From Vallicoccus soli (GTDB lineage Bacteria; Actinomycetota; Actinomycetes; Motilibacterales; Motilibacteraceae), in the NCBI RefSeq assembly GCF_003594885.1, contig NZ_QZEZ01000007.1, positions 62,001-126,000 of the forward strand: a DNA stretch of 64,000 nt, in the 5' to 3' direction. Of this stretch, positions 17,657 through 45,767 are shown one piece after another. Below the pieces are notes generated by a model. It was not told the DNA's origin. It saw only the letters and a program-made list of their open reading frames with translations, and did no database searches. The translations under genes and the position numbers were made by a program. Each line of letters begins with the position of its first letter. The stretch's first letter is position 1.

Positions 17657-17662
17657 ACCCTA
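17657..17662 (-). promoter_or_regulatory. Leaderless-type -10 box (TAGGGT) for the kinase-regulator operon
   Basis: TAGGGT on the minus strand, six bases before the GTG at 17650. It overlaps the stop codon of the upstream GGDEF-EAL gene (17660-17662), so the promoter is embedded in that gene's end. Confidence 0.5.
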
Positions 17663-20026
17663 GGGCCGGGCCGCCCCCACGGGCGCCGGGGCGAGCAGCG
17701 CGGGGACCTCGGCGGCGGGCACGGCGCGGGAGTACCACCAGCCCTGGGCGTGCGTCGCGCCGAGCCGCGCCAGCTCCGGGAGCAGGGCGGCGTCCTCCAC
17801 GCCCTCCGCGACGACGTCGAGCCCCAGGTCGCGGCCGACCCGGACGATGGCGCGCAGGAGGGAGGAGAGCTGGGGGTCGGCGCCGTAGGCCTGCACGTAG
17901 GAGCGGTCCACCTTGAGCACGTCGAGGGGGAGCCGGCGCAGGTGCCCGATCGAGGTGAACCCGGTGCCGAAGTCGTCGAGGGCGACCCGCACACCGCGCC
18001 CGCGCAGCCGCGCCAGCGTCTCGCGCGCCTGCGCCTCGTCGGCCAGCAGCGCGCTCTCGGTGACCTCCAGGGCGAGCAGCTCCGCGGGCAGGCGCGCCGC
18101 CGCGAGCGCCGCACCGACGACGTCGTCGAGGTCGCCGGTGGCGAGCTGCAGCGCGCTGAGGTTGACCGCGACGCGGACCGGCGTCCCCGCGGCCCGCCAC
18201 CGGGCGGCCTGGTGGCAGGCCCGGCGCAGCACCCAGCGGTCCAGCGCGACGACGGCGCCGGTCTCCTCGGCAACGGGCACGAACTCCCCGGGCGGCACGA
18301 GCGCGCCGTCGCGGCGCCAGCGCACCAGCGCCTCGACGGCGTCGACGGCCACCACCTCGCCGCCCGGGCCCAGCGTCGCCAGGGGCTGGTAGTGCAGCTC
18401 GAGCTCGTCGCCCTCGAGGGCCTCGCGCAGCGCCCGCGCCACCTCGTCGCGGCGCACGACCGCGGCGTGCAGGTCGGGGTGGTAGACGTGGGCCTGGTCC
18501 TTGCCGAGCTCCTTGGCGCGGTACATGGCCAGGTCGGCGTCGCGCAGCACCTCGGCCGGGTCCGCGCCGGGGGCGACGACCGCCACGCCCGCGCTGGCGC
18601 TGAGGACGGGGCGCAGGCCCCCCACGTCGTACGGGGCGGCGAGCGCCCGGACGAGCCGCGCGGCGACCTCCGCGGCGGCCGGCTCGGGGGCGCGGGCGAG
18701 CAGCACGGCGAACTCGTCGCCGCCGAAGCGGGCCACGACGTCCCCGCGCACCTCCCGGCGCAGCCGCTGCGCCGCCTCGACGAGCAGCCGGTCGCCCACG
18801 TCGTGCCCGGCGAGGTCGTTGACCTCCTTGAAGCCGTCGAGGTCGAGGAACACCACGGCGCCGGGGACCCGGTGGTCGGCCGCCGCGCCCTGCAGGGCCT
18901 CGACGAAGGCGGCCCGGTTGGCCAGGCCGGTCAGGGCGTCGGTGCTGGCGCTGCGCTCCAGGGCGAGCGCGGCCTCCCGGCCCTCCAGGCCCGTGAGGAG
19001 GAGGCGCAGCACGACCGCCGCCGAGAGCATCACGGCCATGACGAGCTCCAGCGGCTGCAGGGTCCCCCCGCCGAGCCCGGTGGCCAGCACCTCGACGATC
19101 ACGGAGACGACGAGCACCCAGGTCATGGCGGGCGTGGCGCCCGCACCCACCCCGCCGCCCGCGCCGCCGCGGGTGCGGGTGATGGGGCGGAACAGGTCCG
19201 AGCCCCAGCGGCTCGCGAGGGCCACGACGACCAGGAGCAGGCCGCCGAGGACGTAGCCGGCGGACGCGAGCGGGTCGCGGTCCGCGGCGGCGTACGGGCC
19301 CCGGGCGATCGCGCCGGCGAGCATGAGGTCGGCGAAGCTGATGCCGACGAGCGCCACCGCGCCCAGGAGGAGCACGCCGCGGTCGCGCCGCACGCCGAGC
19401 CGGGCCGAGGTGAGGCACGCCCCGAGGAGCACGAGGTCGGCGGCGACCATGAGCAGCCCGGTGAGGTAGGTCGCGAACTGCTCGCCGTCGAAGGGCGGCC
19501 CCGCCGGGACGTCGTCCCACGCGAGCAGCCCGGCGGCGAGGGCGCCCACCACGCCGTCGAGGGCGGCGCGGGCGAGCACGACCCGGCTCCGCCCGACCCG
19601 GGGGAGCCGGAAGACCACGAGCATGGCGCAGGCGTACGGCACCACGGCGAAGCTGCCGACGACCGCGGGCAGCACGTCGAGGTGCTCCGGCAGCGCGCGC
19701 GCCGCGAGCCAGCAGCCGGTGCTCGCCGCGCCGACGAGCAGGGTCACCGAGCAGGCCCGCCAGGGCCAGCGGGCCGCGCCCTCGGTCCGCGCCCCGGCGG
19801 CCCAAGCGGCGCCCGCGGCCGCGCACCAGGTCAGGACCACGACGAGGGCGCTGCCGCCCCCGCGCAGGTGCTCGCGGGTGGCGGGGGCGAGGCAGGCGGC
19901 CGCGTACGCGGAGGTGAGGAGCACGGCGAGGAGCGCCCCCGCGGCCAGGCGCAGCCCGGCGCGGGGCGCCGGCGCAGGGACGGGCTCCACGTCCCCCTCA
20001 TCGGCCGGCCGGCGGGCGATCTTCAC
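17660..20026 (-). CDS. Membrane GGDEF-EAL protein (cyclic di-GMP synthesis/breakdown)
   Basis: 788 residues. About nine hydrophobic segments occupy residues 25-325. The diguanylate cyclase domain follows with an intact active site (RFGGDEFAVLL). Then comes an EAL phosphodiesterase domain with EALVRW, NLSALQL, DDFGTGFTSI, KVDRSYV and VAEGVEDAALL, so both catalytic signatures are present. It should set local c-di-GMP levels. Start is uncertain: GTG 20026 is the longest sensible choice; GTG 19990 has a GAGGGGG just two bases before it. Its stop overlaps the promoter of the next operon. It is divergent from the SGNH hydrolase gene. Confidence 0.88.
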   Translation of the reverse strand: MKIARRPADEGDVEPVPAPAPRAGLRLAAGALLAVLLTSAYAAACLAPATREHLRGGGSALVVVLTWCAAAGAAWAAGARTEGAARWPWRACSVTLLVGAASTGCWLAARALPEHLDVLPAVVGSFAVVPYACAMLVVFRLPRVGRSRVVLARAALDGVVGALAAGLLAWDDVPAGPPFDGEQFATYLTGLLMVAADLVLLGACLTSARLGVRRDRGVLLLGAVALVGISFADLMLAGAIARGPYAAADRDPLASAGYVLGGLLLVVVALASRWGSDLFRPITRTRGGAGGGVGAGATPAMTWVLVVSVIVEVLATGLGGGTLQPLELVMAVMLSAAVVLRLLLTGLEGREAALALERSASTDALTGLANRAAFVEALQGAAADHRVPGAVVFLDLDGFKEVNDLAGHDVGDRLLVEAAQRLRREVRGDVVARFGGDEFAVLLARAPEPAAAEVAARLVRALAAPYDVGGLRPVLSASAGVAVVAPGADPAEVLRDADLAMYRAKELGKDQAHVYHPDLHAAVVRRDEVARALREALEGDELELHYQPLATLGPGGEVVAVDAVEALVRWRRDGALVPPGEFVPVAEETGAVVALDRWVLRRACHQAARWRAAGTPVRVAVNLSALQLATGDLDDVVGAALAAARLPAELLALEVTESALLADEAQARETLARLRGRGVRVALDDFGTGFTSIGHLRRLPLDVLKVDRSYVQAYGADPQLSSLLRAIVRVGRDLGLDVVAEGVEDAALLPELARLGATHAQGWWYSRAVPAAEVPALLAPAPVGAARP

Positions 20027-20047
20027 GCCCCGGGGCAGACTGGCCGG

Positions 20048-20881
20048 GTGACGCGCACCGCCCCGCTCCCGCCCCCCGGCGGCTGGACCCGGTACGTCGC
20101 CCTCGGCGACTCGTTCACCGAGGGGCTCAGCGACCCCGCCGAGGACGGGAGGGGCTACCGCGGCTGGGCGGACCGGCTGGCCGGGCACCTCGACGCGCAC
20201 GCGCGGGCGCGGGGCGGGCCGGGCACCGGGTACGCCAACCTCGCCGTGCGCGGCCGCCTGCTCGGCGCCGTGCTCGACGAGCAGCTGCCCGTGGCCCTGG
20301 CGAGCGGCGCGGACCTGGTGAGCCTCGTCGCCGGCGGCAACGACGTGCTGCGTCCCGGCAGCGACGTGGACGCCCTCGCCGAGGCGGTGGAGACCGCCGT
20401 CGCCGCCCTGCGCGCCACGGGCGCCGACGTGCTCCTCGCCACCGGCGCCGACCCGCGCGACTCGCCCGTCGTGCGCCGCACGCGGGGGCGGGCGGCGACG
20501 TACAACGCGCACCTGTGGTCCGTCGCGGCCCGGCACGGCTGCGCGGTCGTGGACCTGTGGGGCATGCGCGCGCTGCGGGACTGGCGCATGTGGGCCGAGG
20601 ACCGCATCCACCTGGCGCCCGAGGGGCACCGGAGGGTCGCGCTGCAGGCCGCCGCGGCGCTCGGGCTCGACGTGCCGGACGACGGCTGGCGCGAGCCGCT
20701 GCCGCCCGTGCCGCCGCGACCCCGGCTCGAGGGGGCCCGCGAGGACGCGCGCTGGGCCCGGGAGCACCTCGTGCCGTGGGTACGGCGCCGCCTCGCCGGA
20801 CGCTCGTCGGGGGACGGCCTGGCCCCGAAGCGGCCGGTGCCGCAGGACTGGTCGCGCCCGGCGCTGGACGTGCGGGACTGA
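20048..20881 (+). CDS. SGNH/GDSL-family hydrolase
   Basis: A 277-residue esterase/lipase-fold protein. Block I is ALGDSFTEG (nucleophile Ser), block II has the Gly in NLAVRGR, block III is GGNDVLRPG, and block V is DRIHLAPEGHRRVA (catalytic Asp and His). No signal peptide, so it is likely cytoplasmic. GTG 20048 has a CAGACT hexamer six bases upstream and no ribosome site. The glycosylase gene begins one base after its stop, so they form an operon. Substrate unknown. Confidence 0.85.
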   Translation: MTRTAPLPPPGGWTRYVALGDSFTEGLSDPAEDGRGYRGWADRLAGHLDAHARARGGPGTGYANLAVRGRLLGAVLDEQLPVALASGADLVSLVAGGNDVLRPGSDVDALAEAVETAVAALRATGADVLLATGADPRDSPVVRRTRGRAATYNAHLWSVAARHGCAVVDLWGMRALRDWRMWAEDRIHLAPEGHRRVALQAAAALGLDVPDDGWREPLPPVPPRPRLEGAREDARWAREHLVPWVRRRLAGRSSGDGLAPKRPVPQDWSRPALDVRD

Positions 20882-20882
20882 C

Positions 20883-21734
20883 GTGCCGGAGGGCGACAGC
20901 GTCTGGCGCACGGCCCGCACCCTCGACGCGGTCGCCGGGCGTCGGGTCCTGCGCGGCGACCTGCGCGTGCCCCGGCACGCGACCGCGGACCTGGCCGGCG
21001 CCACGGTGCTCGGCACCGGCACCCACGGCAAGCACCTGCTGACCCGCTTCGACGACGGGCGGACCCTGCACACGCACCTGCGCATGGACGGGTCGTGGTC
21101 GGTGCTCGGCCCGGGCAAGCGGCTCCCCGGCCGGCTGCTGCCGGACCTGCGGGTGCTCCTCGCCGTCGACGACGGCCGCACGGCCTGCGGGCTGCGCCTG
21201 CCCGTGGTCGAGCTGCTGCGCACCGCGGACGAGGCCGAGGTCGTCGGCCACCTCGGTCCGGACCCCCTGCGCGAGGACTGGGACGAGGACGAGGCGGTGC
21301 GCCGGCTCACCGCGCGCCCGGAGCGCCCGGTCAAGGCGGCCCTGCTCGACCAGCGGCTCATGGCCGGGATCGGCAACCTCTGGGCGGACGAGACGTGCTT
21401 CCTGCGCGGCACCTCCCCGTGGACCCCCGTCGGCGAGGTCGACGTGCGCGGCGCGGTGCGCCTCGCGGCACGGATGCTGCGGGCCTCGATCGCCGACCCG
21501 CGCGCCCACCAGGTCACCACCGGTGACCCCCGTCCGGGCCGGGACCACTGGGTCGTCGGCCGGGCGCACGAGCCGTGCCGCCGCTGCGGCACCCCGGTGC
21601 GCGTCGTCGCCGAGGTGCCGGGCGACGCCGAGCGCCGCCGCACCTGGTGGTGCCCGCACTGCCAGCCCGGCCCGGGCCCCGACGCCCTGCAGGCCCGCAG
21701 CGCCGCCCGGTCCGTCCGGGGCCTCGGCTGCTGA
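20883..21734 (+). CDS. Fpg/Nei-family DNA glycosylase (endonuclease VIII type)
   Basis: A 283-residue base-excision repair enzyme. The N-terminus MPEGDSVWRTAR provides the catalytic Pro2/Glu3 after Met removal. HGKHLL supplies the conserved lysine. The helix-two-turn-helix contains LLDQRLMAGIGNLWADE, and the C-terminal zinc finger has CRRCG…CPHC. The P-E-G-D start fits Nei rather than Fpg (PELPEV), so it should excise oxidised pyrimidines. Start GTG 20883 follows one base after the SGNH hydrolase stop. Confidence 0.9.
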   Translation: MPEGDSVWRTARTLDAVAGRRVLRGDLRVPRHATADLAGATVLGTGTHGKHLLTRFDDGRTLHTHLRMDGSWSVLGPGKRLPGRLLPDLRVLLAVDDGRTACGLRLPVVELLRTADEAEVVGHLGPDPLREDWDEDEAVRRLTARPERPVKAALLDQRLMAGIGNLWADETCFLRGTSPWTPVGEVDVRGAVRLAARMLRASIADPRAHQVTTGDPRPGRDHWVVGRAHEPCRRCGTPVRVVAEVPGDAERRRTWWCPHCQPGPGPDALQARSAARSVRGLGC

Positions 21735-25126: not shown

Positions 25127-26419
25127 GTGGAGCTGACCAACTGGGCGGGCAACGTCGCGTTCGGCGCGCGCCGGCTGCACCGGCCCGCCTCGCTCGAGGA
25201 GCTGCGCGACGTCGTGGCCACCGCCTCGTCGGCGGGGGAGCCGGTGCGCGTCCTCGGCACCGGGCACTCGTTCAACCGGGTCGCCGACACCGACGGGCAC
25301 CTCGTGTCGGTCGCCGACCTGCCGCGCGAGGTGGACGTCGACCGCGCCGCGGGCTCGGTGCGGGTCAGCGGCGGCACCCGCTACGGCGAGCTGGGGGCCC
25401 ACCTGCAGGCCGCGGGCCTCGCCCTGCACAACCTCGGCTCCCTGCCGCACATCAGCGTCGCGGGGGCCTGCGCCACCGGCACGCACGGCTCGGGGGTCCG
25501 CAACCGCAACCTGCCGAGCGCGGTACGGGCCGTGGAGCTCGTCACCGCCGGCGGCGAGGTCGTCGTCCGCCGCCGCGGCGAGCCCGGCTTCGAGGGCGCG
25601 GTCCTCGCGCTGGGCGCGCTGGGGGTGGTGACCGCGCTCGAGCTGGACGTGCAGCCCTCGTACGACGTGCGCCAGGTCGTCCACGACGACCTGCCCCTCG
25701 CCGCGCTCGAGGAGGACCTCGACGGGGTGATGGGGGCGGCGTACAGCGTCAGCCTCTTCACCGACTGGCAGGACCGCGACGGGCGGGGCCCCTTGCTGCA
25801 GGCGTGGCTCAAGGCGCGCGACGGCGAGGAGCTGCCGGGGGCCGCCTGGCGCGGGTCGCGCCGCGCCGACGGCCCGCGGCACCCGGTGCCGGGCGTCGCG
25901 ACCGACCCGGCGACGGAGCAGGGCGCCGTGCCGGGGCCCTGGAACGCGCGGCTGCCGCACTTCCGCCTGGAGTTCGTGCCGAGCAACGGCGAGGAGCTGC
26001 AGTCCGAGTGGTTCGTCGAGCGCGGCCACGGCATCGAGGCGCTGCGCGCGCTGCTGCCGCTCGCGGACCGGCTGGCCCCGGTGCTCATGATCAGCGAGCT
26101 GCGGACCGTCGCCGCCGACGACCTCTGGCTCAGCCCCTCGTACGAGCGGGACTGCCTCGCGCTGCACTTCACCTGGCACCTCGACACCCCGGCCGTGCTG
26201 CCGGTCGTCGCGGCCGTGGAGGAGGCGCTGGCGCCGTTCGCGGCCCGACCGCACTGGGGCAAGGTCTTCACCGCCGGCGGGCCCGAGGTGGGCGCGCTCT
26301 ACCCGCGGCTGGACGACGCGCGCCGACTCGCCGCCGAGCTCGACCCGCGCGGGACGTTCCGCAACGAGCTCGTGGACCGCTACGTGCCGCGCTGGGCGGC
26401 GGCGACGGCGCCCGCCTGA
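25127..26419 (+). CDS. FAD-dependent alditol oxidase-like protein
   Basis: A 430-residue vanillyl-alcohol-oxidase-fold flavoprotein. The N-terminal FAD domain starts NWAGNVAFGARRLHRP; VLGTGHSFN contains the histidine that covalently binds FAD in alditol oxidase (AldO). The second FAD motif is ISVAGACATGTHGSG. The C-terminal ALO-type substrate domain ends in HWGKVFTAGG and LDPRGTFRNELVDRYV. It should oxidise polyols such as xylitol or sorbitol to aldoses with H2O2 release; L-gulono- or arabinono-lactone oxidation is the alternative. GTG 25127 follows GAGGGGGAC. Its last 40 bases overlap the convergent GAF-EAL gene. Confidence 0.87.
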   Translation: MELTNWAGNVAFGARRLHRPASLEELRDVVATASSAGEPVRVLGTGHSFNRVADTDGHLVSVADLPREVDVDRAAGSVRVSGGTRYGELGAHLQAAGLALHNLGSLPHISVAGACATGTHGSGVRNRNLPSAVRAVELVTAGGEVVVRRRGEPGFEGAVLALGALGVVTALELDVQPSYDVRQVVHDDLPLAALEEDLDGVMGAAYSVSLFTDWQDRDGRGPLLQAWLKARDGEELPGAAWRGSRRADGPRHPVPGVATDPATEQGAVPGPWNARLPHFRLEFVPSNGEELQSEWFVERGHGIEALRALLPLADRLAPVLMISELRTVAADDLWLSPSYERDCLALHFTWHLDTPAVLPVVAAVEEALAPFAARPHWGKVFTAGGPEVGALYPRLDDARRLAAELDPRGTFRNELVDRYVPRWAAATAPA

Positions 26420-27627
26420 GCCCGGGGCCCGGGCACCGCGGCGGCGGCCGGCGGGTAGCGGTCGGCCATCGCCCCCGGCGGGCCGGGGCGGCCGTAGTGC
26501 CAGCCCTGCGCGAGGTCCACCCTGCAGCCGAGGAGCGCGGCGGCGTCCTCCGGGCCCTCGACCCCCTCGGCGACGACCTGCGCGCCGCTGCCGTGCGCGA
26601 AGTCGCCGAGCGAGGTGACGAGGGTCCGCAGCACCGGGTCGCCGGCGACGCCGTCGACGATGCTGCGGTCGAGCTTGATGACGTCCGGCGCGGTCAGCAC
26701 GATGTGGCGCAGCGAGGAGAAGCCGGTGCCGACGTCGTCGATCGCCAGGCGCATCCCGCGCGCCCGCAGCGGCCCGAGCACCGCGTGCAGGGCCTCGTAG
26801 TCCTCGACCGGGTCGTGCTCGCACAGCTCGAGCAGGACGCGCTCGAGCGGCAGCCGCCCCAGCAGGGCCGACGCCCCGGGCGTGACGAGCGTGCCGGGGC
26901 TGATGTTCATCGAGACGTAGCCCGGCACGACCTCGAGGTGGTCCGCGGCTCGCTCCAGCGCGAGCAGCTCGAGCTGGTCGCCGAGGCCGAGCTCGTGGGC
27001 CTGGGCGAAGACGACGTCGGGGGTGAGCCCCCAGGCGCGCGGGAAGCGGCTCAGCGCCTCGGCGCCGGCCCGCACGCCCGTGCCGAGGTGCACGATCGGC
27101 TGCAGGACGACCTCGGGGCCGCCCGCGTCCATGACCGGGCCGAGCCGGCCCATGACCTCGCCGCGGCGGGCGCGCTCGGTGACCTCGGGCTCGACGACCA
27201 CCGCGGCGGCCTGCGCGAGCACCTCCATGAGGGCCTTGTCGCGCTTGCCGAGCCGGTGGTCGGTGGTGAGCGAGGCGGTGCAGAAGGTGCCGTACAGCGA
27301 GCCGTCGCTGAGCGTCACCGGCACGGTCACGAAGCTCCGGATGCGGGGGAAGCGGGCCGCCGGCAGCTCCATCGCGGCCGGGTGCTCGCGCAGGTCGGTC
27401 ATCACGGCCGGCAGCCGCCCGTCGAGGACGGCCTGGCACAGCGTCCGCTCGCGGGCCTGCTGGTAGCCCTCCTGGAACAGCAGCGGCACGCTCGACTCCA
27501 CGACCTCCAGCGTCTGCGTGCCCCCCTCCATGCGGCTGAGGAAGGCCACGCTGACGCCGAGCGACTCCTTCGCGGTGCGGAGGAGGTCGGCGAGCTGCTG
27601 CTCGACGTCGGTGCGCTGCCTGGCCAC
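26380..27627 (-). CDS. GAF-EAL protein (c-di-GMP phosphodiesterase type)
   Basis: 415 residues. A GAF domain covers about 10-165 (LGVSVAFLSRMEGGTQTLEV, SFVTVPVTLSDGSLYGTFC). The EAL domain covers about 185-395 with EALSRF, SMNISPGTL, LCEHDPVEDY, DDVGTGFSSLRH, KLDRSIVDG and VAEGVEGPED, so the metal ligands look complete. No membrane segment, so a soluble sensor-phosphodiesterase is likely. Start GTG 27627 is chosen because the GAF domain begins there; the longer frame to 27714 has no domain content. The 3' end overlaps the AldO-like gene by 40 bases, tail to tail. Confidence 0.85.
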   Translation of the reverse strand: MARQRTDVEQQLADLLRTAKESLGVSVAFLSRMEGGTQTLEVVESSVPLLFQEGYQQARERTLCQAVLDGRLPAVMTDLREHPAAMELPAARFPRIRSFVTVPVTLSDGSLYGTFCTASLTTDHRLGKRDKALMEVLAQAAAVVVEPEVTERARRGEVMGRLGPVMDAGGPEVVLQPIVHLGTGVRAGAEALSRFPRAWGLTPDVVFAQAHELGLGDQLELLALERAADHLEVVPGYVSMNISPGTLVTPGASALLGRLPLERVLLELCEHDPVEDYEALHAVLGPLRARGMRLAIDDVGTGFSSLRHIVLTAPDVIKLDRSIVDGVAGDPVLRTLVTSLGDFAHGSGAQVVAEGVEGPEDAAALLGCRVDLAQGWHYGRPGPPGAMADRYPPAAAAVPGPRAQAGAVAAAQRGT

Positions 27628-27731
27628 ACCGGAGCATCGGCACGCCGCACCCCGGGCTGGAGGGGGCCGTCCGGGGGTATGCGCACGGGCGGCGCGGCCC
27701 GGACGGGGCCGCACGACGAGCGAGGAGACGC

Positions 27732-30584: not shown

Positions 30585-30830
30585 GTGGACGAGTCGGACA
30601 TCCTGGCGCGCGTGCGGGCGCTCGTCGACGAGGAGCACGCCCTGCGCGAGCGCCTCGCGGCCGGCGAGCTGACCGACGCGGAGGAGCACGCGGCCCTCGG
30701 CCGCGCCGAGGAGGAGCTCGACCGGTGCTGGGACCTCCTGCGCCAGCGCCGCGCCCGGCGCGAGTTCGGCGAGGACCCCGCCGCCGCGACCCCCCGCCCC
30801 GCCTCCACCGTCGAGGGCTACCTCCAGTAG
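30585..30830 (+). CDS. DUF2630 family protein
   Basis: 81 residues, almost entirely alpha-helical. It matches the DUF2630 pattern: ILARVRALVDEEHALRERLA, then EEELDRCWDLLRQRRARREF and the C-terminal VEGYLQ. The family is common and single-copy in actinomycetes; function unknown. Start GTG 30585 has GAGGAGG upstream. A cluster of GATC-core repeats follows. Confidence 0.88.
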   Translation: MDESDILARVRALVDEEHALRERLAAGELTDAEEHAALGRAEEELDRCWDLLRQRRARREFGEDPAAATPRPASTVEGYLQ

Positions 30831-30953: not shown

Positions 30954-31964
30954 TCAGGTGCCGAGGGCGGCGCGCAGGCGCCGTACGCCCTCCTCGACGC
31001 CGACCTGCGGGGACCAGCGCAGGTCCCGGCGGGCGGCGGTGAGGTCGAACCAGTGGTCGGTGGCGAGCTGGGTGGCGAGGAAGCGGGTGAGCGGGGGCTC
31101 GTCGGCCCGCCCGAGCAGCGACCAGACGCCCTCGACGGCGGCGCCGGCGCCGTACGCCAGGGGGTAGGGGACCGAGCGGCGCACCGGCGGCAGCCCGTGG
31201 GCGTCGAGGATCCGCCCGACGACGTCGGCGACGGGCCGGGGGTCACCGGCCGAGACGAAGTACGCGCGCCCGCCGCAGGCCGGGTCGTCCTCGCCGAGCC
31301 GGTCGAGCGCCGCGAGGTGCGCGGCGGCGGCGTCCTCGACGTACGTGGTGTCGACGACCGCCCCGCCGCCGCCGACGAGCCACAGCCGCCCCCGCCGGGC
31401 CCGGTCGACGATGCGCGCGGTGAGCTGGGTGTCGCCGGGGCCCCAGACCAGGTGCGGGCGCAGCGCCACCGTGCGCAGCACCCCGTCCCCGCCCCGCAGC
31501 GGCGTGCGGTCCGCGGCGAGGGCCAGCCGCTCCGCGGCCGCCTTGGTGCGCGGGTACGGGGTCTCGTAGCGCCGCGCGTACGGCAGCGACTCGTTCCCGC
31601 CGCGGATGCTCCCCCCGGCGTGGACGACGCTGGGCGTCGAGGTGTGCACGAGCCGCGGGACGCCCAGCGCCACGCACGCCTGCACCACCCGGAGCGTGCC
31701 GGTGACGTTGGCCCGGTGGTAGTCGGCCTGGCGCCCGCCCATGCCGGCCTTCGCGGCGACGTGCAGGACGGCGTCGCAGCCGGCGACGGCGTCGCGCACC
31801 GCCGCGGGGTCGGCGACGTCGCCGCGGCGCGCGTCGACGCCGAGCCGTGCGAGCCACGGGTACGACCCCCGCGCGAGCACCCGCACCGCGTCGCCCCGCG
31901 CCGCGAGCGCGCGGACGACGGCGGAGCCGAGGAACCCGCCCCCGCCGGTGACGAGGACCCTCAC
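30954..31964 (-). CDS. oleD: OleD: NAD(P)H-dependent 2-alkyl-3-ketoacid reductase
   Basis: 336 residues, extended short-chain dehydrogenase. The cofactor motif is VLVTGGGGFLGSAV, and the catalytic pair is Tyr-X3-Lys in TPYPRTKAAAE with the upstream Ser/Thr in HTSTPSVV. Sequence such as LRPHLVWGPGDTQL and YFVSAGDPRPV is typical of the 3-beta-HSD-like group that includes OleD. OleD reduces the 2-alkyl-3-ketoacid made by OleA to the beta-hydroxy acid. GTG 31964 overlaps the oleC stop (GTGA). Last gene of the oleABCD operon. Confidence 0.88.
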   Translation of the reverse strand: MRVLVTGGGGFLGSAVVRALAARGDAVRVLARGSYPWLARLGVDARRGDVADPAAVRDAVAGCDAVLHVAAKAGMGGRQADYHRANVTGTLRVVQACVALGVPRLVHTSTPSVVHAGGSIRGGNESLPYARRYETPYPRTKAAAERLALAADRTPLRGGDGVLRTVALRPHLVWGPGDTQLTARIVDRARRGRLWLVGGGGAVVDTTYVEDAAAAHLAALDRLGEDDPACGGRAYFVSAGDPRPVADVVGRILDAHGLPPVRRSVPYPLAYGAGAAVEGVWSLLGRADEPPLTRFLATQLATDHWFDLTAARRDLRWSPQVGVEEGVRRLRAALGT

Positions 31965-33580
31965 CGCAGCCGGCCCGCGGCCCAGCGCGCGAGGGCTGGG
32001 CGGTCGATCTTCGCGTTGTGCCGGATGTCCACCGGGAAGCGCTTGCCGTAGAAGAGCACGGTCCGGACCCGCTCGGTCACCGGTGAGGACGCCGCGAGGT
32101 CGAGCACCTCGCGGGCGAGCGCGTCGGAGGCGCGGTGGCCCGGCTCGAGCTCGAGCACCGCGACGGGCCGCTGGGCCCCCGGCTCGCCGACGCCGACGAG
32201 CGCGCTCCGTCGCACGGCGGGATGCGCGTCGAGGCGCACCTCCACCGGCACCGGCCAGAGCGTGCCGCCCGCCGCCCGCACCCGGTGCGCCGCCCGCCCG
32301 GCGAACCAGAGCCGCCCCTCGTCGTCGAGCCAGCCCGCGTCGCCCATGCGGTGCGCGAGCCGGCCGTCCCAGCGGGTCTTGGCGAGCGCGGTCTGGACGG
32401 GGCGCTCGGCGTACCGCTCGGTGACGTTGGGCCCGCGCACGACGACCTCGCCGACCTGCCCCGCCGGGAGCAGGTCCTCGGCGCGCAGCGCGGGCAGCTC
32501 GCCGTCGACGACCCGCACGACGGCGAGGTCGACGCCGGGCACCGGCCGCCCGACGCAGATCCCGACGGCGCCGGAGCGCCGCAGCCGCAGCACCTCGTCG
32601 CTGCCGACGTCGGTGACGGGGAGGGCCTCGGTGGCGCCGTACGGGGAGTGCACCTGCGCGCCGTCCGGCAGCATCGCGAGGGTGCGGCGCTGCACCTCCG
32701 GCGTCACCGGGGAGCCGGCCGACACCACGCGGGTGAGCGAGGCGGGGAAGCGCTTGCCGGTCTCGGCGCCCCAGCGGCTCACGGTGTCGAGCAGCGCCGG
32801 CGAGCCGAACATCACCGTGGCGCCGGCGTGCTCGGCGGCGGCGAGCACCTGGCGCGGGTCCACGTCCGCCGGTCGGGTCGGGTCCATCCGCGGGACGATC
32901 GTCGAGATGCCGAGCAGCGGCCCGAACAGCGCGAACGGCGGGAACGTCGCGAGGCTGACGTCGCCCGGGCCGAGGCCCCACAGCTCGCGCAGCAGCGCGA
33001 CCTGGGCGAGGAACTGCGGGTGGCGGTACTCCACGCCCTTGGGGACCCCCGTGCTGCCGGTGGTGAAGAGCACCGCGGCCGGGTCCTGCGCGGGGGGTGG
33101 CGCGAAGGGCAGCCGCCGCACCCCCTCGGCCTCCACCTCGGCGAGCGTCGCCCCGCCGCCGGGCACCCGCCGCCCGACCGTCACCGACCGGCGGACCGTC
33201 GGGCACCAGCGCAGCGCCCGGCGCGCGACCTGCGCGCGGGGGATGCCCACGAACGCCTCGGGGCGCACCTCGCCGAGGCAGCGGCCGAGGTTCGCCGTGC
33301 CGATCCCGGGGTCGACGAGCACCGGCACGGCGCCCGCGCGCAGCAGGCCGAAGGCGAGCGCGAAGAAGTCCTCGCCGGGAGGCACGAGCATCGCCGTGCG
33401 GGTGCCGGGGCCGATCCCGTACGCGCTCAGCCCCGCCGCCAGCGCGTCGGCGCGGGCGTCGAGGCCGGCGTACGTCGTGGCGCGGAAGCCGCTGCGCCCG
33501 GCCGGCACCCACGCGGCGACGGCGCCGGGGGTCGTACGCGCCGCCTCGGCCAGCGCGCCCGCGAGGTCGCGGGCGCTCAC
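31961..33580 (-). CDS. oleC: OleC: AMP-forming beta-lactone synthetase
   Basis: 539 residues of the ANL adenylating superfamily. The P-loop-like motif is LFTTGSTGVPKGVEYRH, A5 is SPYGATEALPV, A7 is HRMGDAGWLDDEG, and the C-terminal lysine lies in IRHNAKIDRPAL. In the Ole pathway OleC uses ATP to close the beta-hydroxy acid to a beta-lactone. The GSTGVPKGVEYRH and FPPFALFGP sequences are characteristic of OleC-type ligases. GTG 33580 overlaps the oleB stop. It is not fused to OleB here. Confidence 0.88.
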   Translation of the reverse strand: MSARDLAGALAEAARTTPGAVAAWVPAGRSGFRATTYAGLDARADALAAGLSAYGIGPGTRTAMLVPPGEDFFALAFGLLRAGAVPVLVDPGIGTANLGRCLGEVRPEAFVGIPRAQVARRALRWCPTVRRSVTVGRRVPGGGATLAEVEAEGVRRLPFAPPPAQDPAAVLFTTGSTGVPKGVEYRHPQFLAQVALLRELWGLGPGDVSLATFPPFALFGPLLGISTIVPRMDPTRPADVDPRQVLAAAEHAGATVMFGSPALLDTVSRWGAETGKRFPASLTRVVSAGSPVTPEVQRRTLAMLPDGAQVHSPYGATEALPVTDVGSDEVLRLRRSGAVGICVGRPVPGVDLAVVRVVDGELPALRAEDLLPAGQVGEVVVRGPNVTERYAERPVQTALAKTRWDGRLAHRMGDAGWLDDEGRLWFAGRAAHRVRAAGGTLWPVPVEVRLDAHPAVRRSALVGVGEPGAQRPVAVLELEPGHRASDALAREVLDLAASSPVTERVRTVLFYGKRFPVDIRHNAKIDRPALARWAAGRLR

Positions 33581-34464
33581 GTGCGGTCCAGCAGGTCGAG
33601 CACGCGCGGGACCACGACCTCCCGGGCGTCCTCGAGGACGAAGTGCCCGGCGTCCTCGTACGCGTGGACCTCGGCCGAGGGCACCAGCTCGCGCCAGCGC
33701 TCGAGGATGCGCGCGTCGAGCACCGGGTCGCGCAGCCCCCACAGCACGAGGACCGGCACCTGCGCGAGCAGCCCCGGCAGGGCCCGCTCCGTCGCGGCGA
33801 GCAGGGCGTGCGCCGGGGCCGAGGGCGAGGCCGGCACGTCCTGCACGAAGCGCAGCACCGCGAGCCGGCGCGCGGGGGAGTCGTACGGCGCGAGGTAGCC
33901 GCGGCGCACCTGGCGCGGCATCCGGTGCACGACGCCGAGGTGCACGGCCCCGCGCACGAAGGCGTTGCCGAGCAGGACGGCCCCGTCGCCGGCGTACGGC
34001 ACCCGCGCCGCCCGCAGGTGCCACGGCAGGCCGGCGCCGGGGGGCAGGGGGAACGCGGCGGTGTTGAGCAGGACCACGCGGCGCACCCGCTCGGGGTGGC
34101 GCACGGCCCAGGCGAGCGCGATCGCGCCGCCCCAGTCGTGGACCACGAGCGTCAGCGGGCCGTCGGGCAGCACGGCGTCGACGAAGCCGCCGAGGTCCTC
34201 GACCCGCCGCTCGTACGTGAAGGGGTAGTCGCCCGCCGCCGGGCGCGCGCTGCGGCCCATCCCCACGTGGTCGGGGACGACGGCGCGGTGCCCGTGCGCG
34301 GCGACCGCCGCGGCGAGGTGCCGGTAGTGGTACGACCAGGACGGGTTGCCGTGCACCATGAGCACCGGCTCGCCGGCGCCCTCGTCGAGGTACGCGACGT
34401 CCTGGCCCCCCACGGTCACGTGGCGGGCGTCCGGGAGGTCGGGGAGGCGGAGGTCCGCCCTCAC
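33577..34464 (-). CDS. oleB: OleB: alpha/beta hydrolase, beta-lactone decarboxylase
   Basis: 295 residues, haloalkane-dehalogenase-like. HGNPSWSYHYR supplies the oxyanion HGNPxxS motif, the nucleophile is Asp110 in VVHDWGGAIA, and the catalytic His is in DAGHFVLEDA. Asp in place of Ser fits OleB, which decarboxylates cis-beta-lactones to cis-olefins. Position between oleA and oleC and GTGA overlaps on both sides support the assignment. GTG 34464 is the coupled start. Confidence 0.87.
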   Translation of the reverse strand: MRADLRLPDLPDARHVTVGGQDVAYLDEGAGEPVLMVHGNPSWSYHYRHLAAAVAAHGHRAVVPDHVGMGRSARPAAGDYPFTYERRVEDLGGFVDAVLPDGPLTLVVHDWGGAIALAWAVRHPERVRRVVLLNTAAFPLPPGAGLPWHLRAARVPYAGDGAVLLGNAFVRGAVHLGVVHRMPRQVRRGYLAPYDSPARRLAVLRFVQDVPASPSAPAHALLAATERALPGLLAQVPVLVLWGLRDPVLDARILERWRELVPSAEVHAYEDAGHFVLEDAREVVVPRVLDLLDRT

Positions 34465-35489
34465 CAGTGCACTTCCGCGGCGCAGGCGTTGAGCCCGCTG
34501 CCGATGCCCATGAGGACCGCCTTGTCGCCGCGGCGCAGCCGGCCCTCCTCCGCCGCCTTGGACAGCACGTACGGCACGGAGGCCGGCCCCATGTTGCCGT
34601 GCTCGGGGAAGATCAGCGGCACGCGCTGCGGGTCGATGCCGAGGGTGTCGCAGACCGCGCGGGTGTGGACGAGGCTCACCTGGTGCAGGGCGTAGAGGTC
34701 GAAGCCGTCCGGGTCCCACCCGTACGCGTCCACGGCCTCCTTCCACGTGAGGTGGCCCAGCTCGATGCCGGCGTCGAGCAGCCCGCGCAGGTCGGTGAGC
34801 ATCTCGTGGGCGTGGCCGGTGCACAGGTGCGCGTGCTGCGTGCTCGCCCGGCTCAGACCGCCGAGGTACGCGTGCCCGTCGTCGACCGTGCCCTTGCGGG
34901 ACAGCACCATGGCCACCGCGCCGGAGCCGAGCGTCAGCGTCGCGAACTGCTCGCGCAGGACCTCCGGGGTGCCCTTGGTGAGCAGCCGCTCGATGGTCGA
35001 CTCGACGACGAAGCGGCTGCTCTCGGCGTTGACGACGATCCCGTGGTCGATCTCGCCGCGCTCGATCATCGTCGAGACCAGGTTCATCCCGTTGACGAAG
35101 CCCAGGCAGGCGTTGCCCAGGTCGAAGTTCATGGCGGTCGTGGGCAGGCCGAGCTTGCCGTGCACGATGCTCGCGGTCGACGGCTCGAGGAAGTCGCGGC
35201 TCACCGAGGTGTTGACGAGCATGCCGAGCTGCTCGGCGGGGACGCCGCTGCGCTCGATCGCGCGGCGCCCGGCCTCGGCGGCGGGGTCGCTCGGCGGCGT
35301 GCCCTCGTCCCAGACGCGGCGCTGGCTGATGCCGACGAGGCGCCCGAGCAGGCCGCGGCCCACCCCGAGCCGCTTCATCGCCGGCGCCAGCCGGTCCTCG
35401 ATGGCCTCGGAGGTGAGGACCTGCGGGGCGTCCAGGTGCGCCAGCCCGCTGATGACGACGTCGCTGTAGCGCTGTCCTGCGTTCGGCAC
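34461..35489 (-). CDS. oleA: OleA: thiolase-fold acyl-CoA condensing enzyme
   Basis: 342 residues, KAS III-like. Catalytic Cys128 lies in GNACLGFVNG, His in YALHQVS and Asn in EHGNMGPAS. The sequence FLEPSTASIVHGKLGL contains the glutamate that in OleA projects from the partner subunit and starts the non-decarboxylative Claisen condensation of two fatty acyl-CoAs. It is the first gene of oleABCD. Start GTG 35489 has a weak GGGG site; a TACGCT -10 box at 35560-35565 gives a leader of about 65 bases that contains an inverted repeat. Confidence 0.9.
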   Translation of the reverse strand: MPNAGQRYSDVVISGLAHLDAPQVLTSEAIEDRLAPAMKRLGVGRGLLGRLVGISQRRVWDEGTPPSDPAAEAGRRAIERSGVPAEQLGMLVNTSVSRDFLEPSTASIVHGKLGLPTTAMNFDLGNACLGFVNGMNLVSTMIERGEIDHGIVVNAESSRFVVESTIERLLTKGTPEVLREQFATLTLGSGAVAMVLSRKGTVDDGHAYLGGLSRASTQHAHLCTGHAHEMLTDLRGLLDAGIELGHLTWKEAVDAYGWDPDGFDLYALHQVSLVHTRAVCDTLGIDPQRVPLIFPEHGNMGPASVPYVLSKAAEEGRLRRGDKAVLMGIGSGLNACAAEVHW

Positions 35490-35516
35490 CCGCGGTCCCC
35501 TGTCACCTGGTCATCG

Positions 35517-35532
35517 GCGCTGGCGTCAGCGC
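35517..35532 (-). promoter_or_regulatory. Inverted repeat in the oleA leader
   Basis: Arms GCGCTG/CAGCGC with a four-base centre, about 28 bases before the oleA start and downstream of the TACGCT -10 box (35560-35565). It could be an operator or a leader hairpin. Confidence 0.35.
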
Positions 35533-35671
35533 TCGTCGTCAGCACCCCTCGAGCGCCCCAGCGTATGCGAGCAGCGCGCCGGGGCGTCCCGACGCGGTAC
35601 CCGCCCCGGCGCCGCCGCAACCGGTCCCCCCGCCCTCCCGCGCCCGCCACGCGCTCGTCGGGGTCCCGCCC

Positions 35672-35677
35672 TAGGCT
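35672..35677 (+). promoter_or_regulatory. Leaderless-type -10 box (TAGGCT) for the aminotransferase
   Basis: TAGGCT six bases before GTG 35684, no Shine-Dalgarno sequence. Identical spacing to the HAD gene at 1617. Confidence 0.5.
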
Positions 35678-35683
35678 GCGCCC

Positions 35684-36772
35684 GTGACGGACGCCACCCC
35701 TGCCGCCGCCCCCTCCACCCCGCGCCTGCGCGCGGCGCTCGACGCCGTGCCCGCGTACGTGCCCGGCCGGACCGCCGCGGGCGAGGTGCTGTGGAAGGCG
35801 TCGTCCAACGAGAACCCGTACCCGCCGCTGCCGGGGGTCCTCGAGGCCGTCGGGCGCGAGGTCGCGGCCATGAACCGCTACCCCGACATGACCGCGGGGG
35901 CGCTCGTGCAGGAGCTGTCCCGCCGCTTCGACGTGCCGCCGGAGCACCTGGCCACCGGCACCGGCAGCGTGGGCGTGCTCCAGCAGGTCGTGCAGGCCAC
36001 CGCCGGGCCGGGCGACGAGGTCGTCTTCGCCTGGCGCTCCTTCGAGGCGTACCCGATCGTCGTCGGCATCGCGGGGGCCACCGCCGTGCGGGTGCCGCTC
36101 ACCGCCACCGAGGAGCACGACCTCGACGCCATGGCCGAGGCGATCACGGACCGTACGCGCCTCGTGCTCGTCTGCTCGCCGAACAACCCGACCGGCCCGG
36201 CGGTCCGGCGGGCCGCCCTCGAGCGCTTCCTCGACCGGGTGCCGCCGGACGTCCTCGTCGTGCTCGACGAGGCGTACCGCGAGTTCGTGCGCGACCCGGA
36301 GGTGCCGGACGGGGTCGAGCTGCACCGCGACCGCCCCGGCCTGTGCGTGCTGCGGACGTTCTCGAAGGCGTACGGCCTCGCCGGCCTGCGGGTCGGCTTC
36401 GCGGTGGCCCACCCGCCGGTCGCCGAGGCGCTGCGCAAGACGGCGGTGCCCTTCGGCGTCAGCGGGCCGGCGCAGGTGGCCGCGATCGCGTCCCTGCGCT
36501 CGGAGGAGGCGCTGGCGGAGCGGGTCGAGGCGCTCGTGCAGGAGCGGGCGCGGGTCGTGGCGGCGCTGCGCGCCCAGGGCTGGGACCCGCCCGCGAGCGA
36601 GGCGAACTTCGTCTGGCTGCGGCTCGGGGAGCGCACGGGGGAGTTCGCGGCCGCCTGCGAGCGGGCGGGGGTCGTCGTGCGCCCGTTCGCGGGCGAGGGC
36701 GCGCGGGTCACCGTCGCCGAGCCCGAGGCGAACGACGCGTGGCTCGCGGTGGCGGCGACGTTCGTCCCCTGA
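35684..36772 (+). CDS. HisC-like pyridoxal-phosphate aminotransferase
   Basis: 362 residues, fold-type I class II aminotransferase. Substrate-contact sequence SSNENPYPP, cofactor residues NNPTG and DEAYREF, and the Schiff-base lysine in [15 protein letters not shown] are all present. It could act on histidinol phosphate or, as for actinobacterial 'Pat' proteins, on aromatic amino acids (phenylpyruvate). No his-operon genes are nearby, so the aromatic role is at least as likely. GTG 35684 appears leaderless. Divergent from oleABCD. Confidence 0.85.
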
Positions 36773-41669: not shown

Positions 41670-42175
41670 GGGCGGCAGCTCCTCGGGGTCGCGGTCGGCG
41701 CGCGCCGTCAAGGCGGCGCGCCGTTCGGGGGACGCTGGGAAACTACCTGCCGGGGCACCAAGCGGCGGTAAAGCGGCGGCGATCCTGTGGACGGGACCGC
41801 CCGTCGGGCCCCGCCGCCGGCACGCACCGCCAGCGTCCCGTCGCGCAGCGTCCCGACGCCGGGCCGGCCCACCCCGCACCGCCGCCGGGGCACCGCTGCG
41901 CCGCGTCCCCGCAGGTCACGCCCCGGTCACGCCGGGGCCACCCGGGCGCCGCCCGCCGTCCCCCGGGCCCGCCGGGCCCGCCGGGCCCCCGCTCCTACCC
42001 CCGGACCGGTACGTTGTCCCGCACGGGCCTGTGAGTCGCACCACAGGGGCGTCCCACGGGGCCCGGACGGGCACCGGAGCCCCCCACCTCGGGGCGCCGC
42101 GGGCCCGTCGCCGGCCGCACCCGCCGGCGCCCGGGGACCCCGGGCGGGCGGGACGTGACGAGGACAGGAGCGCCC
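41670..42175. other. Divergent intergenic region, 506 bp
   Basis: No convincing gene: all open frames are biased-composition shadows. It contains a direct repeat AAGCGGCGG near 41758-41780, a GGGCCCGCC-type 9-bp run near 41965-41992, and an inverted repeat CCTGTG-N8-CACAGG at 42028-42047 upstream of the dehydrogenase operon that could be an operator. I looked for a c-di-AMP (ydaO) riboswitch before the M23 gene and did not recognise one. Confidence 0.5.
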
Positions 42176-43348
42176 GTGACCGACACCGTCGTCGGCGCGG
42201 CGGGCGCCCGGGCGCACCCCGGGACCGCCGCGCAGGCCCCCACCCCCGACGTGCCCGGGGAGGTCGCCGGCCCCGAGCTCGTGCAGCTGCTGACGCCCGA
42301 GGGCGAGCGGGTGCACCACCCGCGCTACGACCTCGAGACCACGCCCGAGGAGCTGCGCTCCCTCTACCGCGACCTCGTCCTCGTGCGCCGGGTCGACGTG
42401 GAGGCCACCGCCCTGCAGCGCCAGGGCGAGCTCGGCATCTGGGCCAGCCTGCTCGGCCAGGAGGCGGCCCAGGTCGGCTCGGGCCGCGCGCTGCTGGCGC
42501 GGGACCACGCGTTCCCGACCTACCGCGAGCACGGCGTCGCCTGGACGCGCGGGGTCGACCCGCTCCAGCTGCTCGGCCTCTTCCGCGGGGTGAACCACGG
42601 CGGCTGGGACCCGGCCGAGCACGGCTTCCACCTCTACACGATCGTCATCGGCGCCCAGACGCTGCACGCCACCGGCTACGCGATGGGGATGCAGCGCGAC
42701 GGCGCCGAGGCGGCCACCATCGCGTACTTCGGCGACGGCGCCTCCAGCCAGGGCGACGTCAACGAGGCCTTCACCTTCGCCAGCGTCACCTCGGCCCCGG
42801 TCGTGTTCTTCTGCCAGAACAACCACTGGGCGATCTCCGAGCCGCTGGAGCGCCAGACCCGCATCCCGCTCTACCAGCGCGCGCTCGGCTTCGGCTTCCC
42901 CGGCGTGCGGGTCGACGGCAACGACGTGCTCGCGTGCCTCGCCGTGACCCGCGACGCCCTGCGCACCGCGCGCGAGGGCGGCGGCCCGACGCTCGTCGAG
43001 GCCTACACGTACCGGATGGGCGCGCACACGACCTCCGACGACCCGACCCGCTACCGCATCGCCAGCGAGGTCGAGCAGTGGAAGCTCAAGGACCCGCTCG
43101 AGCGGCTCAAGGCGCACCTCGTGCGGGGCGGCTGGGCCGACCAGGCCTTCCTCGACGACCTCGACCGGGAGGCCGAGGCGCTGGCCGTACGGCTGCGCGA
43201 GGGCTGCCGCGCGCTGCCCGACCCGCCGCCCACGGCGATGTTCGACCACGTGTACGCCGAGCCCCACCCGCTCCTCGCGGAGGAGCGGGCCGGGATGGTC
43301 GACTACCTCGCCTCGTTCGAGGACGCTCCCGAGGGGGCCGCGCGATGA
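42176..43348 (+). CDS. pdhA: 2-oxoacid dehydrogenase E1 alpha subunit (pyruvate/branched-chain type)
   Basis: 390 residues. The thiamine diphosphate motif is GDGASSQGDVNEAFTF…FFCQNN. The phosphorylation-loop region is YRMGAHTTSDDPTRYR. With E1 beta it decarboxylates a 2-oxoacid and transfers the acyl group to lipoyl-E2. The N-terminus ELVQLLTPEGERVHHPRYDL is usual for actinobacterial proteins called PdhA, though this lineage also contains the branched-chain enzymes, so substrate is open. GTG 42176 has AGGAGC; GTG 42155 is an alternative. First gene of a three-gene operon lacking E3. Confidence 0.88.
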   Translation: MTDTVVGAAGARAHPGTAAQAPTPDVPGEVAGPELVQLLTPEGERVHHPRYDLETTPEELRSLYRDLVLVRRVDVEATALQRQGELGIWASLLGQEAAQVGSGRALLARDHAFPTYREHGVAWTRGVDPLQLLGLFRGVNHGGWDPAEHGFHLYTIVIGAQTLHATGYAMGMQRDGAEAATIAYFGDGASSQGDVNEAFTFASVTSAPVVFFCQNNHWAISEPLERQTRIPLYQRALGFGFPGVRVDGNDVLACLAVTRDALRTAREGGGPTLVEAYTYRMGAHTTSDDPTRYRIASEVEQWKLKDPLERLKAHLVRGGWADQAFLDDLDREAEALAVRLREGCRALPDPPPTAMFDHVYAEPHPLLAEERAGMVDYLASFEDAPEGAAR

Positions 43349-44328
43349 CCACCACGACGCTCGCGAAGGCGCTCAACGGCGGGCTGCGCCGCGCCATGGA
43401 CGCCGACCCCAAGGTCCTCGTCATGGGCGAGGACGTCGGCAAGCTCGGCGGCGTCTTCCGGGTCACCGACGGCCTGCAGAAGGACTTCGGCGAGGACCGG
43501 GTCATCGACACCCCGCTCGCCGAGTCCGGCATCGTCGGCACGGCGATCGGCCTGGCCCTGCGCGGCTACCGCCCCGTGGTGGAGATCCAGTTCGACGGCT
43601 TCGTCTACCCGGCGTTCGACCAGATCGTCAGCCAGCTGGCCAAGATGCGCGCCCGCTCGCTGGGCGCGGTGTCCCTGCCGGTCGTCGTGCGGATCCCCGT
43701 CGGCGGCGGGATCGGCGCCGTCGAGCACCACAGCGAGTCCAACGAGGCGTACTTCGCCCACACCGCCGGCCTGCGCGTCGTCGCCTGCTCGACCCCGGAC
43801 GACGCGTACTGGATGGTGCAGCAGGCCGTGGCCTGCGAGGACCCGGTGCTGCTCTACGAGCCCAAGCGGCGCTACTGGGACAAGGGCGAGGTCGACGAGG
43901 CGCGCGCCTGGGACGACCTCACGCCGCTGCACGCGGCGCGGGTGCTGCGCGAGGGCACCGACGTCACCGTCGCCGCGTACGGCCCGACGGTCCGCACGGC
44001 GCTCGACGCCGCGGCGGCCGCCGAGCGGGAGGGGACGTCCCTCGAGGTGCTCGACCTGCGCTCGCTGTCCCCGCTCGACCTCGGCGCGCTCGAGGCGTCG
44101 GTCGCGCGCACCGGGCGGCTCGTCGTCGTCCACGAGGCGCCGACCTTCCTCGGCCTCGGCGCCGAGGTGGCGGCCCGGGTGACCGAGCGCTGCTTCTACC
44201 GGCTCGAGGCGCCCGTGCTGCGCGTCGGCGGCTACGACGTGCCGTACCCGCCGAGCCGCCTCGAGGACGCCTTCCTGCCCGACCTCGACCGCGTCCTCGA
44301 CGCCGTCGACCGCTCGCTCGCCTTCTGA
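43345..44328 (+). CDS. 2-oxoacid dehydrogenase E1 beta subunit
   Basis: 327 residues. VLVMGEDVGKLGGVFRVTDG, DTPLAESGIVGTAIGLAL and the C-terminal transketolase domain (VLDLRSLSPLD, VVHEAPTFLGLGAEVAA) match the E1 beta family. It binds thiamine diphosphate together with E1 alpha at the subunit interface. ATG 43345 overlaps the E1 alpha stop (ATGA), giving coupled 1:1 synthesis. The E2 gene begins 17 bases downstream. Confidence 0.92.
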   Translation: MTTTTLAKALNGGLRRAMDADPKVLVMGEDVGKLGGVFRVTDGLQKDFGEDRVIDTPLAESGIVGTAIGLALRGYRPVVEIQFDGFVYPAFDQIVSQLAKMRARSLGAVSLPVVVRIPVGGGIGAVEHHSESNEAYFAHTAGLRVVACSTPDDAYWMVQQAVACEDPVLLYEPKRRYWDKGEVDEARAWDDLTPLHAARVLREGTDVTVAAYGPTVRTALDAAAAAEREGTSLEVLDLRSLSPLDLGALEASVARTGRLVVVHEAPTFLGLGAEVAARVTERCFYRLEAPVLRVGGYDVPYPPSRLEDAFLPDLDRVLDAVDRSLAF

Positions 44329-44345
44329 GGACCCGAGGACCTGAC

Positions 44346-45767
44346 GTGCCCGAGATCAAGCAGTTCCGCCTGCCCGACGTCGGCGAGGGCCTCACCGAGG
44401 CCGAGATCGTGTCGTGGAAGGTCAAGGAGGGCGACGCCGTCGCCGTCAACGACGTCATCGTCGAGATCGAGACCGCGAAGTCGCTCGTCGAGCTGCCGTG
44501 CCCGTACGCCGGCGTCGTCGCCGAGCTGCTCGTGCCCGAGGGCACCACGGCCGACGTCGGCGCGCCGATCATCGCCGTCGACGTGGCCGTCGGGGCGTCC
44601 GCGCCGCCCGTGCAGGCGACCTCCTCGCTCGCCGAGGACCTGGTGCCCACGCCGCCGCCGGTCACCGAGGAGGCGCCGGCGCGCCAGCCCGTGCTCGTCG
44701 GGTACGGCCCCCGCGCCGCCGCCACCGCGCGCCGGCCCCGGCGCGGGCGCCCCGACCCGTCCGGCGCGGCGCCGGTCCAGCAGGCGCTGCACGGCGCGTT
44801 CGTGCCCTCGCCCTCGCCCGCCCCCGCGCAGGCCCCCGGGCCCGTCCCGGCGGCGGTGCTCGCCAAGCCCCCCGTGCGCCGCCTGGCCAAGGAGCTGGGC
44901 GTCGACCTCGCGACCGTGGACCCCACCGGTCCCGGCCGGGTCGTCACCCGCGCCGACGTCGAGGCCGCCGCGGCCGCCGCAGCCCCCGGCCGTGATCATG
45001 CAGCTCCCGGGCGTGATCATGCAGATCCCGGCCGCGATCATGCAGTGCCCGGACGTGACCATGCGCCCGCCGGCGCGGTGCGCATCCCGGTCAAGGGCGT
45101 GCGCAAGGCGACCGCGCGGGCGATGGTCGCGAGCGCCTTCACCGCGCCGCACGTCACCGAGTGGGTCGAGGTCGACGTCACCCGGACGCTCAAGCTCGTG
45201 CGCCGGCTCAAGGAGGACCCCGCGCTCGCGGGCCTGCGGGTCGGCCCGCTGCTGCTCGTCGCGCGGGCCTTCGTCCTCGCGCTGCGCCGGCACCCCGAGG
45301 CCAACGCGTCGTGGGACGAGGACGCGCAGGAGATCGTCCTGCACCCCGCGGTGCACCTCGGCATCGCCGCGGCGACCCCGCGCGGGCTCGTCGTGCCGAA
45401 CGTCAAGGGCGCCGATGCCCTGGCCCTGCCGGACCTGGCCCGGGCGCTGGACGAGCTCGTCCGCACCGCGCGCGCGGGCCGTACGCAGCCCGCCGACCTG
45501 CAGGGCGGCACCGCGACGATCACCAACGTCGGCGTCTTCGGCGTCGACGGCGGCACCCCGATCCTCAACCCCGGGGAGTCGGTGATCCTCGCCGTCGGCG
45601 CGGTCCGCGAGAAGCCGTGGGTGCACAAGGGCAGGGTCCGCCCGCGCTCGGTGCTCCAGCTGTCGCTGAGCTTCGACCACCGCCTCGTCGACGGCGAGCT
45701 GGGCTCGAAGCTCCTCGCCGACGTGGCGCGGGTGCTCGAGGACCCGTCGTACGCCCTCGCCCTCTGA
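44346..45767 (+). CDS. 2-oxoacid dehydrogenase E2 (dihydrolipoamide acyltransferase) with a repeat-derived linker
   Basis: 473 residues. The lipoyl domain covers 1-80 with the lipoylated Lys45 in IEIETAKSLVELP. A Pro/Ala linker follows, then the E1/E3-binding domain at about 176-212 (VRRLAKELGVDLATVDPTGP). The second linker is unusual: residues 214-241 are four heptads PGRDHA(A/D/V/P) encoded by four 21-bp tandem repeats. The catalytic domain follows from about 247 with SFDHRLVDGELG (His and Asp of the active site) near the C-terminus. GTG 44346 has GAGGA upstream. No lipoamide dehydrogenase (E3) gene follows. Confidence 0.92.
   Translation: MPEIKQFRLPDVGEGLTEAEIVSWKVKEGDAVAVNDVIVEIETAKSLVELPCPYAGVVAELLVPEGTTADVGAPIIAVDVAVGASAPPVQATSSLAEDLVPTPPPVTEEAPARQPVLVGYGPRAAATARRPRRGRPDPSGAAPVQQALHGAFVPSPSPAPAQAPGPVPAAVLAKPPVRRLAKELGVDLATVDPTGPGRVVTRADVEAAAAAAAPGRDHAAPGRDHADPGRDHAVPGRDHAPAGAVRIPVKGVRKATARAMVASAFTAPHVTEWVEVDVTRTLKLVRRLKEDPALAGLRVGPLLLVARAFVLALRRHPEANASWDEDAQEIVLHPAVHLGIAAATPRGLVVPNVKGADALALPDLARALDELVRTARAGRTQPADLQGGTATITNVGVFGVDGGTPILNPGESVILAVGAVREKPWVHKGRVRPRSVLQLSLSFDHRLVDGELGSKLLADVARVLEDPSYALAL
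44985..45068 (+). repeat. Four 21-bp tandem repeats with GATCATGC core inside the E2 gene
   Basis: Units start at 44985, 45006, 45027 and 45048. The conserved core is GTGATCATGCAG; the fourth unit reads GTGACCATGC. On the minus strand each unit reads TGCATGATCACGGCCGGG, close to the intergenic GCATGATCGCCGCCGGG at 30853. 21 bp keeps the frame, giving PGRDHA heptads. Confidence 0.9.

Follow-up and report, generated by a model that had tools for sequence, protein, structure and literature searches.

An unfused oleABCD operon in Vallicoccus soli, probably of a lineage separate from the fused oleBC operons of its family

The stretch of Vallicoccus soli DNA analysed here (64,000 nucleotides, hereafter the window) very likely carries an alkene-making oleABCD operon that belongs to an unfused lineage, apart from the oleBC fusion lineage of its family, and that was on balance gained horizontally. 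The operon is intact and unfused in a family whose members mostly have the fusion, and operons like it are found in further families and classes of actinobacteria. The Ole system is known and its chemistry ordinary; the new point is a modest one, namely that a family with the fusion also contains an unfused lineage placed elsewhere in the genome.

The four genes are transcribed in the order oleA, oleB, oleC, oleD on the minus strand (35489 to 30954), and all four frames are open, each with a GTG start. The features of the locus are as follows.

34461–35489, minus strand: oleA, 342 aa, putative head-to-head acyl-CoA condensing thiolase, with Glu102, Cys128, His269 and Asn299
33577–34464, minus strand: oleB, 295 aa, alpha/beta hydrolase of the haloalkane-dehalogenase kind, putative beta-lactone decarboxylase, with Asp110 and His274
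31961–33580, minus strand: oleC, 539 aa, putative AMP-binding beta-lactone synthetase
30954–31964, minus strand: oleD, 336 aa, putative NAD(P)H-dependent 2-alkyl-3-oxoalkanoate reductase, with Tyr137-x3-Lys141
34461–34464, minus strand: GTGA overlap of the oleA stop (TGA) and the oleB start (GTG)
33577–33580, minus strand: oleB stop overlapping the oleC start in GTGA, at the boundary where relatives carry the fusion
31961–31964, minus strand: oleC stop overlapping the oleD start in GTGA
35490–35683: intergenic stretch between oleA and a divergent aminotransferase gene, putative promoter site of the operon by its position only

The original prediction of an oleA-oleB-oleC-oleD order joined by three GTGA overlaps is exact in its coordinates, with GTGA at all three junctions, and the four Ole proteins are probably separate chains produced by coupled translation. 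The aminotransferase gene (histidinol-phosphate type, 35684–36772) is divergent and starts 194 bases upstream of oleA, while a convergent open frame with a DUF2630 domain, ending at 30830, lies downstream of oleD; the operon therefore apparently comprises four genes, and the domain annotation of the locus places no tailoring gene inside it. The G+C content of the operon (0.774) equals that of the window (0.771), so its composition gives no sign of a recent gain. Since the oleC frame is open far upstream of its start (883 aa), a hidden oleBC fusion was considered and rejected, as the extended frame overlaps oleB in a different reading frame; oleB and oleC are thus not joined in one frame, as they are in a fusion. 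Long open frames are common in this 77% GC DNA, with 51 of at least 120 aa over 15 kb.

The proteins match the Ole families to differing degrees. OleA scores above the cut-off of NCBIfam model NF006720 (424.9 bits against 285) and aligns end to end with the solved structure 3row, which heads the group of entries forming its best solved relative; these are listed as 3-oxoacyl-ACP synthase III and we take them to be the OleA of Xanthomonas campestris. OleC passes the broader model NF006754 (592.5 bits against a cut-off of 478), and next among its matches comes the olefin beta-lactone synthetase model NF045786, whose cut-off it does not reach (560.9 bits against 900); it is likewise below that of NF045785 (439.6 bits against 850). 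As these two models take their names from the Xanthomonas and Shewanella enzymes, the shortfall is read as distance from those enzymes. The top match of OleD is the OleD (2-alkyl-3-oxoalkanoate reductase) model NF042422, again below its cut-off (404.2 bits against 580). OleB, a haloalkane-dehalogenase-like hydrolase, falls below every NCBIfam cut-off (best 155.9 bits against 241), and its position in the operon together with its resemblance to the OleB family suggests its function. With oleA, oleB, oleC and oleD all present in one cluster, the locus has the gene content that defines an olefin operon.

The active-site residues were compared in an alignment of 18 hand-chosen sequences, some of them missing for individual proteins. 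In OleA, Glu102, Cys128, His269 and Asn299 are each kept in 17 of 17 rows; by alignment with 3row these presumably correspond to Glu117, Cys143, His285 and Asn315 in X. campestris numbering. The nucleophile of OleB, Asp110, is kept in all 17 rows and His274 in 16, the remaining row (L051) being gapped there, and the protein also carries an HGNP motif. Thr173, Tyr314, Asp414, Arg429 and Lys524 of OleC are conserved in 18 of 18 sequences, and the Tyr-x3-Lys motif of OleD is present in the aligned segments of all 18. The catalytic residues that had been picked out beforehand (OleA Cys128, OleB Asp110 and the OleD motif at 137–141) are therefore in place, as is the partner-subunit glutamate of OleA, whose absence had been named as evidence against the reading: Glu102 aligns with the glutamate of 3row. 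The window OleA also fits the pattern EPxx[AS]x(14,18)DxxNACL given in a published survey (PMC7158056).

The window operon is best read as making alkenes by the established Ole route. In two sources, condensation by OleA, reduction by OleD, beta-lactone formation by OleC and decarboxylation by OleB are described as established steps (PMC7158056, PMC7064751). Here OleA would condense two fatty acyl-CoAs to a beta-keto acid, OleD would reduce this to a beta-hydroxy acid, OleC would close the ring to a beta-lactone and OleB would remove CO2 to leave a long-chain internal alkene. Nothing in the sequence of the four genes speaks against this route, and the claim of a complete operon for head-to-head alkenes is borne out, as far as sequence can carry it, by four intact genes, their family matches and the residues kept. 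The prediction had, however, allowed for an alkene or a beta-lactone, and only the alkene stands as the best reading; oleB lies within the operon, so a beta-lactone end product is less likely. For such a product, as in the lipstatin and nocardiolactone clusters, OleB would have to be inactive or serve another role. OleA, OleC and OleD are common to both pathways, according to PMC7064751, and OleB reaches no curated cut-off; yet oleB sits inside an overlapping operon and retains its aspartate, histidine and HGNP motif, tailoring genes are missing from the operon, and OleA is only 24–31% identical to its counterparts in L037, L039, L164 and L165, four actinobacterial clusters that have an OleA-like protein and no oleB that could be found. 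Closer similarity to beta-lactone enzymes, the other result named in advance as damaging, was thus not seen among these clusters, and we consider a beta-lactone product improbable. That the enzymes are active and form an alkene is inferred, as are the acyl chains they use; the C25–C33 lengths put forward for the alkenes are a guess.

Compared with known systems, the window operon shares with the Xanthomonas-type oleABCD the four enzymes, the gene order and the catalytic residues. Two Lysobacteraceae loci (L084 and L124) have separate oleB and oleC genes, as in the window, and their OleA is 49% identical to the window protein, whereas in L084, L085 and L124 a gap of 514–717 bases lies between oleB and oleC in place of the overlap. 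The oleA-oleBC-oleD operons found in Micrococcales (Micrococcus luteus type) and in the family mates have the pathway and the order of activities in common with the window (PMC7158056, PMC7064751) but join B and C in one protein where the window has two; the M. luteus type is known here by description. The oleACD beta-lactone clusters (lipstatin, nocardiolactone) have similar OleA, OleC and OleD activities (PMC7064751) and lack oleB, which the window operon has together with its nucleophile. The window OleA shares 53–67% identity with the nearest unfused ABCD operons of actinobacteria, 42–51% with fused actinobacterial operons and 33–53% with ABCD operons of other phyla. The same order of separate genes is found in the nearest readable relatives (L050, L051 and L156).

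The distribution of both arrangements was read from the flanks of OleC matches at E 1e-70 in a phylum draw (396 genomes, 22 matches) and a class draw (393 genomes, 41 matches), which had 3 matching genomes in common and so gave 60. In 34 of these oleB and oleC are in one frame with no stop between the matched parts, which agrees with the earlier remark that OleBC is fused in many actinobacteria. The order ABCD with separate genes was found in 8 genomes, the window's included, the order A-C-D-B in 6 and B-A-C-D in 1; oleB was not found in the flanks read in another 6, and a single genome has OleC with a weak OleB match only and no A or D found. The remaining 4 (G403, G112, G148 and G303) have a contig end beside oleC and stand outside the classification. 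None of the best 80 of 544 relatives in an OleC scan was fused, a biased count because the query was built from unfused OleCs. In no genome searched were there two OleC matches at the thresholds used, and hence no carrier of both operon types was seen. The A-C-D-B loci (L158–L163; genomes G413, G506, G521, G468, G499 and G672, family code f90) have a separate oleB downstream of oleD (44–48%) and a distant OleA (27–29%; none found in L162). The B-A-C-D locus (L169, in G626, family code f3) also has a distant OleA (30%), and its OleC is on a long branch. One source reports the oleB-oleC fusion from some actinobacteria, as a rule Micrococcales, and from a single case beyond that phylum (PMC7064751); a 2020 survey places Gram-positive ole clusters only in the order Micrococcales and describes lateral transfer as rare (PMC7158056). 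Our literature search, to which subscription journals were mostly closed, found no paper on unfused oleABCD operons in other actinobacteria.

The family sample consists of five genomes, the window's included. Three of the other four, representing two genera, carry a fused oleBC, its site being conserved; in the fourth neither OleC (1e-60) nor OleA (1e-10) found a match. OleC of the three fused family mates is 42–45% identical to the window OleC, which is closer to those of an Egibacteraceae MAG (64%), a Geodermatophilaceae MAG (60%) and two genomes from other families of the class (63% each). The fused operons of the three relatives share neighbour genes at a site that differs from the window's, and no fused copy was found in the window's genome. 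One of these neighbours has its best match there on contig C6, with no ole match in the 31 kb covered, and a gene from the other side has its best match on contig C5, with no ole match in 20 kb. The aminotransferase gene upstream of oleA is present in all four relatives. It and the fused operon are about 190 kb (G001) or 320 kb (G002) apart or, in G003, on separate contigs, which suggests that the fused operon was not replaced in place. Two genes of the other flank (25127–26419 and the DUF2630 gene) are elsewhere in the relatives, and a comparison with the relatives for an empty site gave no clear insertion at the window operon.

Trees were built from rows hand-picked from 121 loci. Of the 50 rows in the OleC tree, 18 are fused; a branch with support 100 sets these apart from the rest, and the window joins the Egibacteraceae, Geodermatophilaceae, G406 and G403 rows in a group of five (97). 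The OleA tree (44 rows) likewise has its 17 fused rows in one clade (100) and groups the window with three of its companions from the OleC tree (96). Fused and unfused rows are split at 100 in the OleB and OleD trees, where the window is on the unfused side and its smaller group is not starred. The concatenated tree (30 rows under a simpler model, 15 of them, the window among these, of unusual composition) recovers the fused clade at 100/100 and places the window with L050, L051 and L156, unfused operons of scattered actinobacteria, at 100/99. Constraining the window to group with its three family mates is rejected by the AU test (log-likelihood difference 401, p 2.5e-57), whereas constraining it to group with the fused rows as a whole is not (difference 0.34, p 0.49); we read the latter as ambiguity in where the long fused stem attaches.

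As the window is outside the fused clade in all four trees and its operon occupies a different site, the operon is probably a member of a separate unfused lineage and not a broken fusion. Were oleB and oleC products of a split of a fused oleBC inherited within the family, the fusion in three of the four other genomes would be expected, and the AU test does not reject a basal position of the window in the fused clade; but the same test rejects its grouping with the fused family mates, all four proteins are on the unfused side, the operon is at another site, and its nearest relatives, in other families, are likewise unfused. We regard such a split as highly improbable. The unfused operon might instead be an old actinobacterial type kept by descent, the other family members having kept or gained the fused type. 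The clustering of unfused rows from several actinobacterial families and classes fits this, as does the native composition of the operon, although many parallel losses would be needed and no carrier of both types was seen; descent seems possible but rather unlikely. More likely than descent is that the unfused operon was gained horizontally at a new site, with the family's fused copy absent; the direction and time of any such transfer are inferred. We lean slightly towards a broader picture of two actinobacterial olefin systems, an oleBC fusion of single origin and an unfused operon scattered patchily over several families and classes, with the window genome having given up the fused system and taken on the unfused one at a new site.

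Unfused actinobacterial operons would extend the set of probable alkene producers and would supply closely related bacteria with the last two enzymes either tethered or separate. If there are indeed two systems, the lactone synthetase and decarboxylase could be compared in their free and tethered forms as they occur naturally.

Other genes of the window were also noted. Genes for 2-oxo acid dehydrogenase E1/E2 (42155–45767) lie behind the aminotransferase gene (35684–36772) in two of the four relatives too. A supply of branched-chain acyl-CoA by these enzymes was considered and dropped, because E1 alpha scores above the NCBIfam cut-off for pyruvate dehydrogenase. Two minus-strand genes encode cyclic-di-GMP proteins, one with GGDEF and EAL domains (17660–21643) and one with GAF and EAL domains (26380–27714). 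A 1383-aa protein (8473–12624) combines PA14, carbohydrate-binding, 3-keto-disaccharide hydrolase and fibronectin domains, and at 58381–62217 a molybdopterin oxidoreductase gene is followed directly by a gene for a 4Fe-4S protein.
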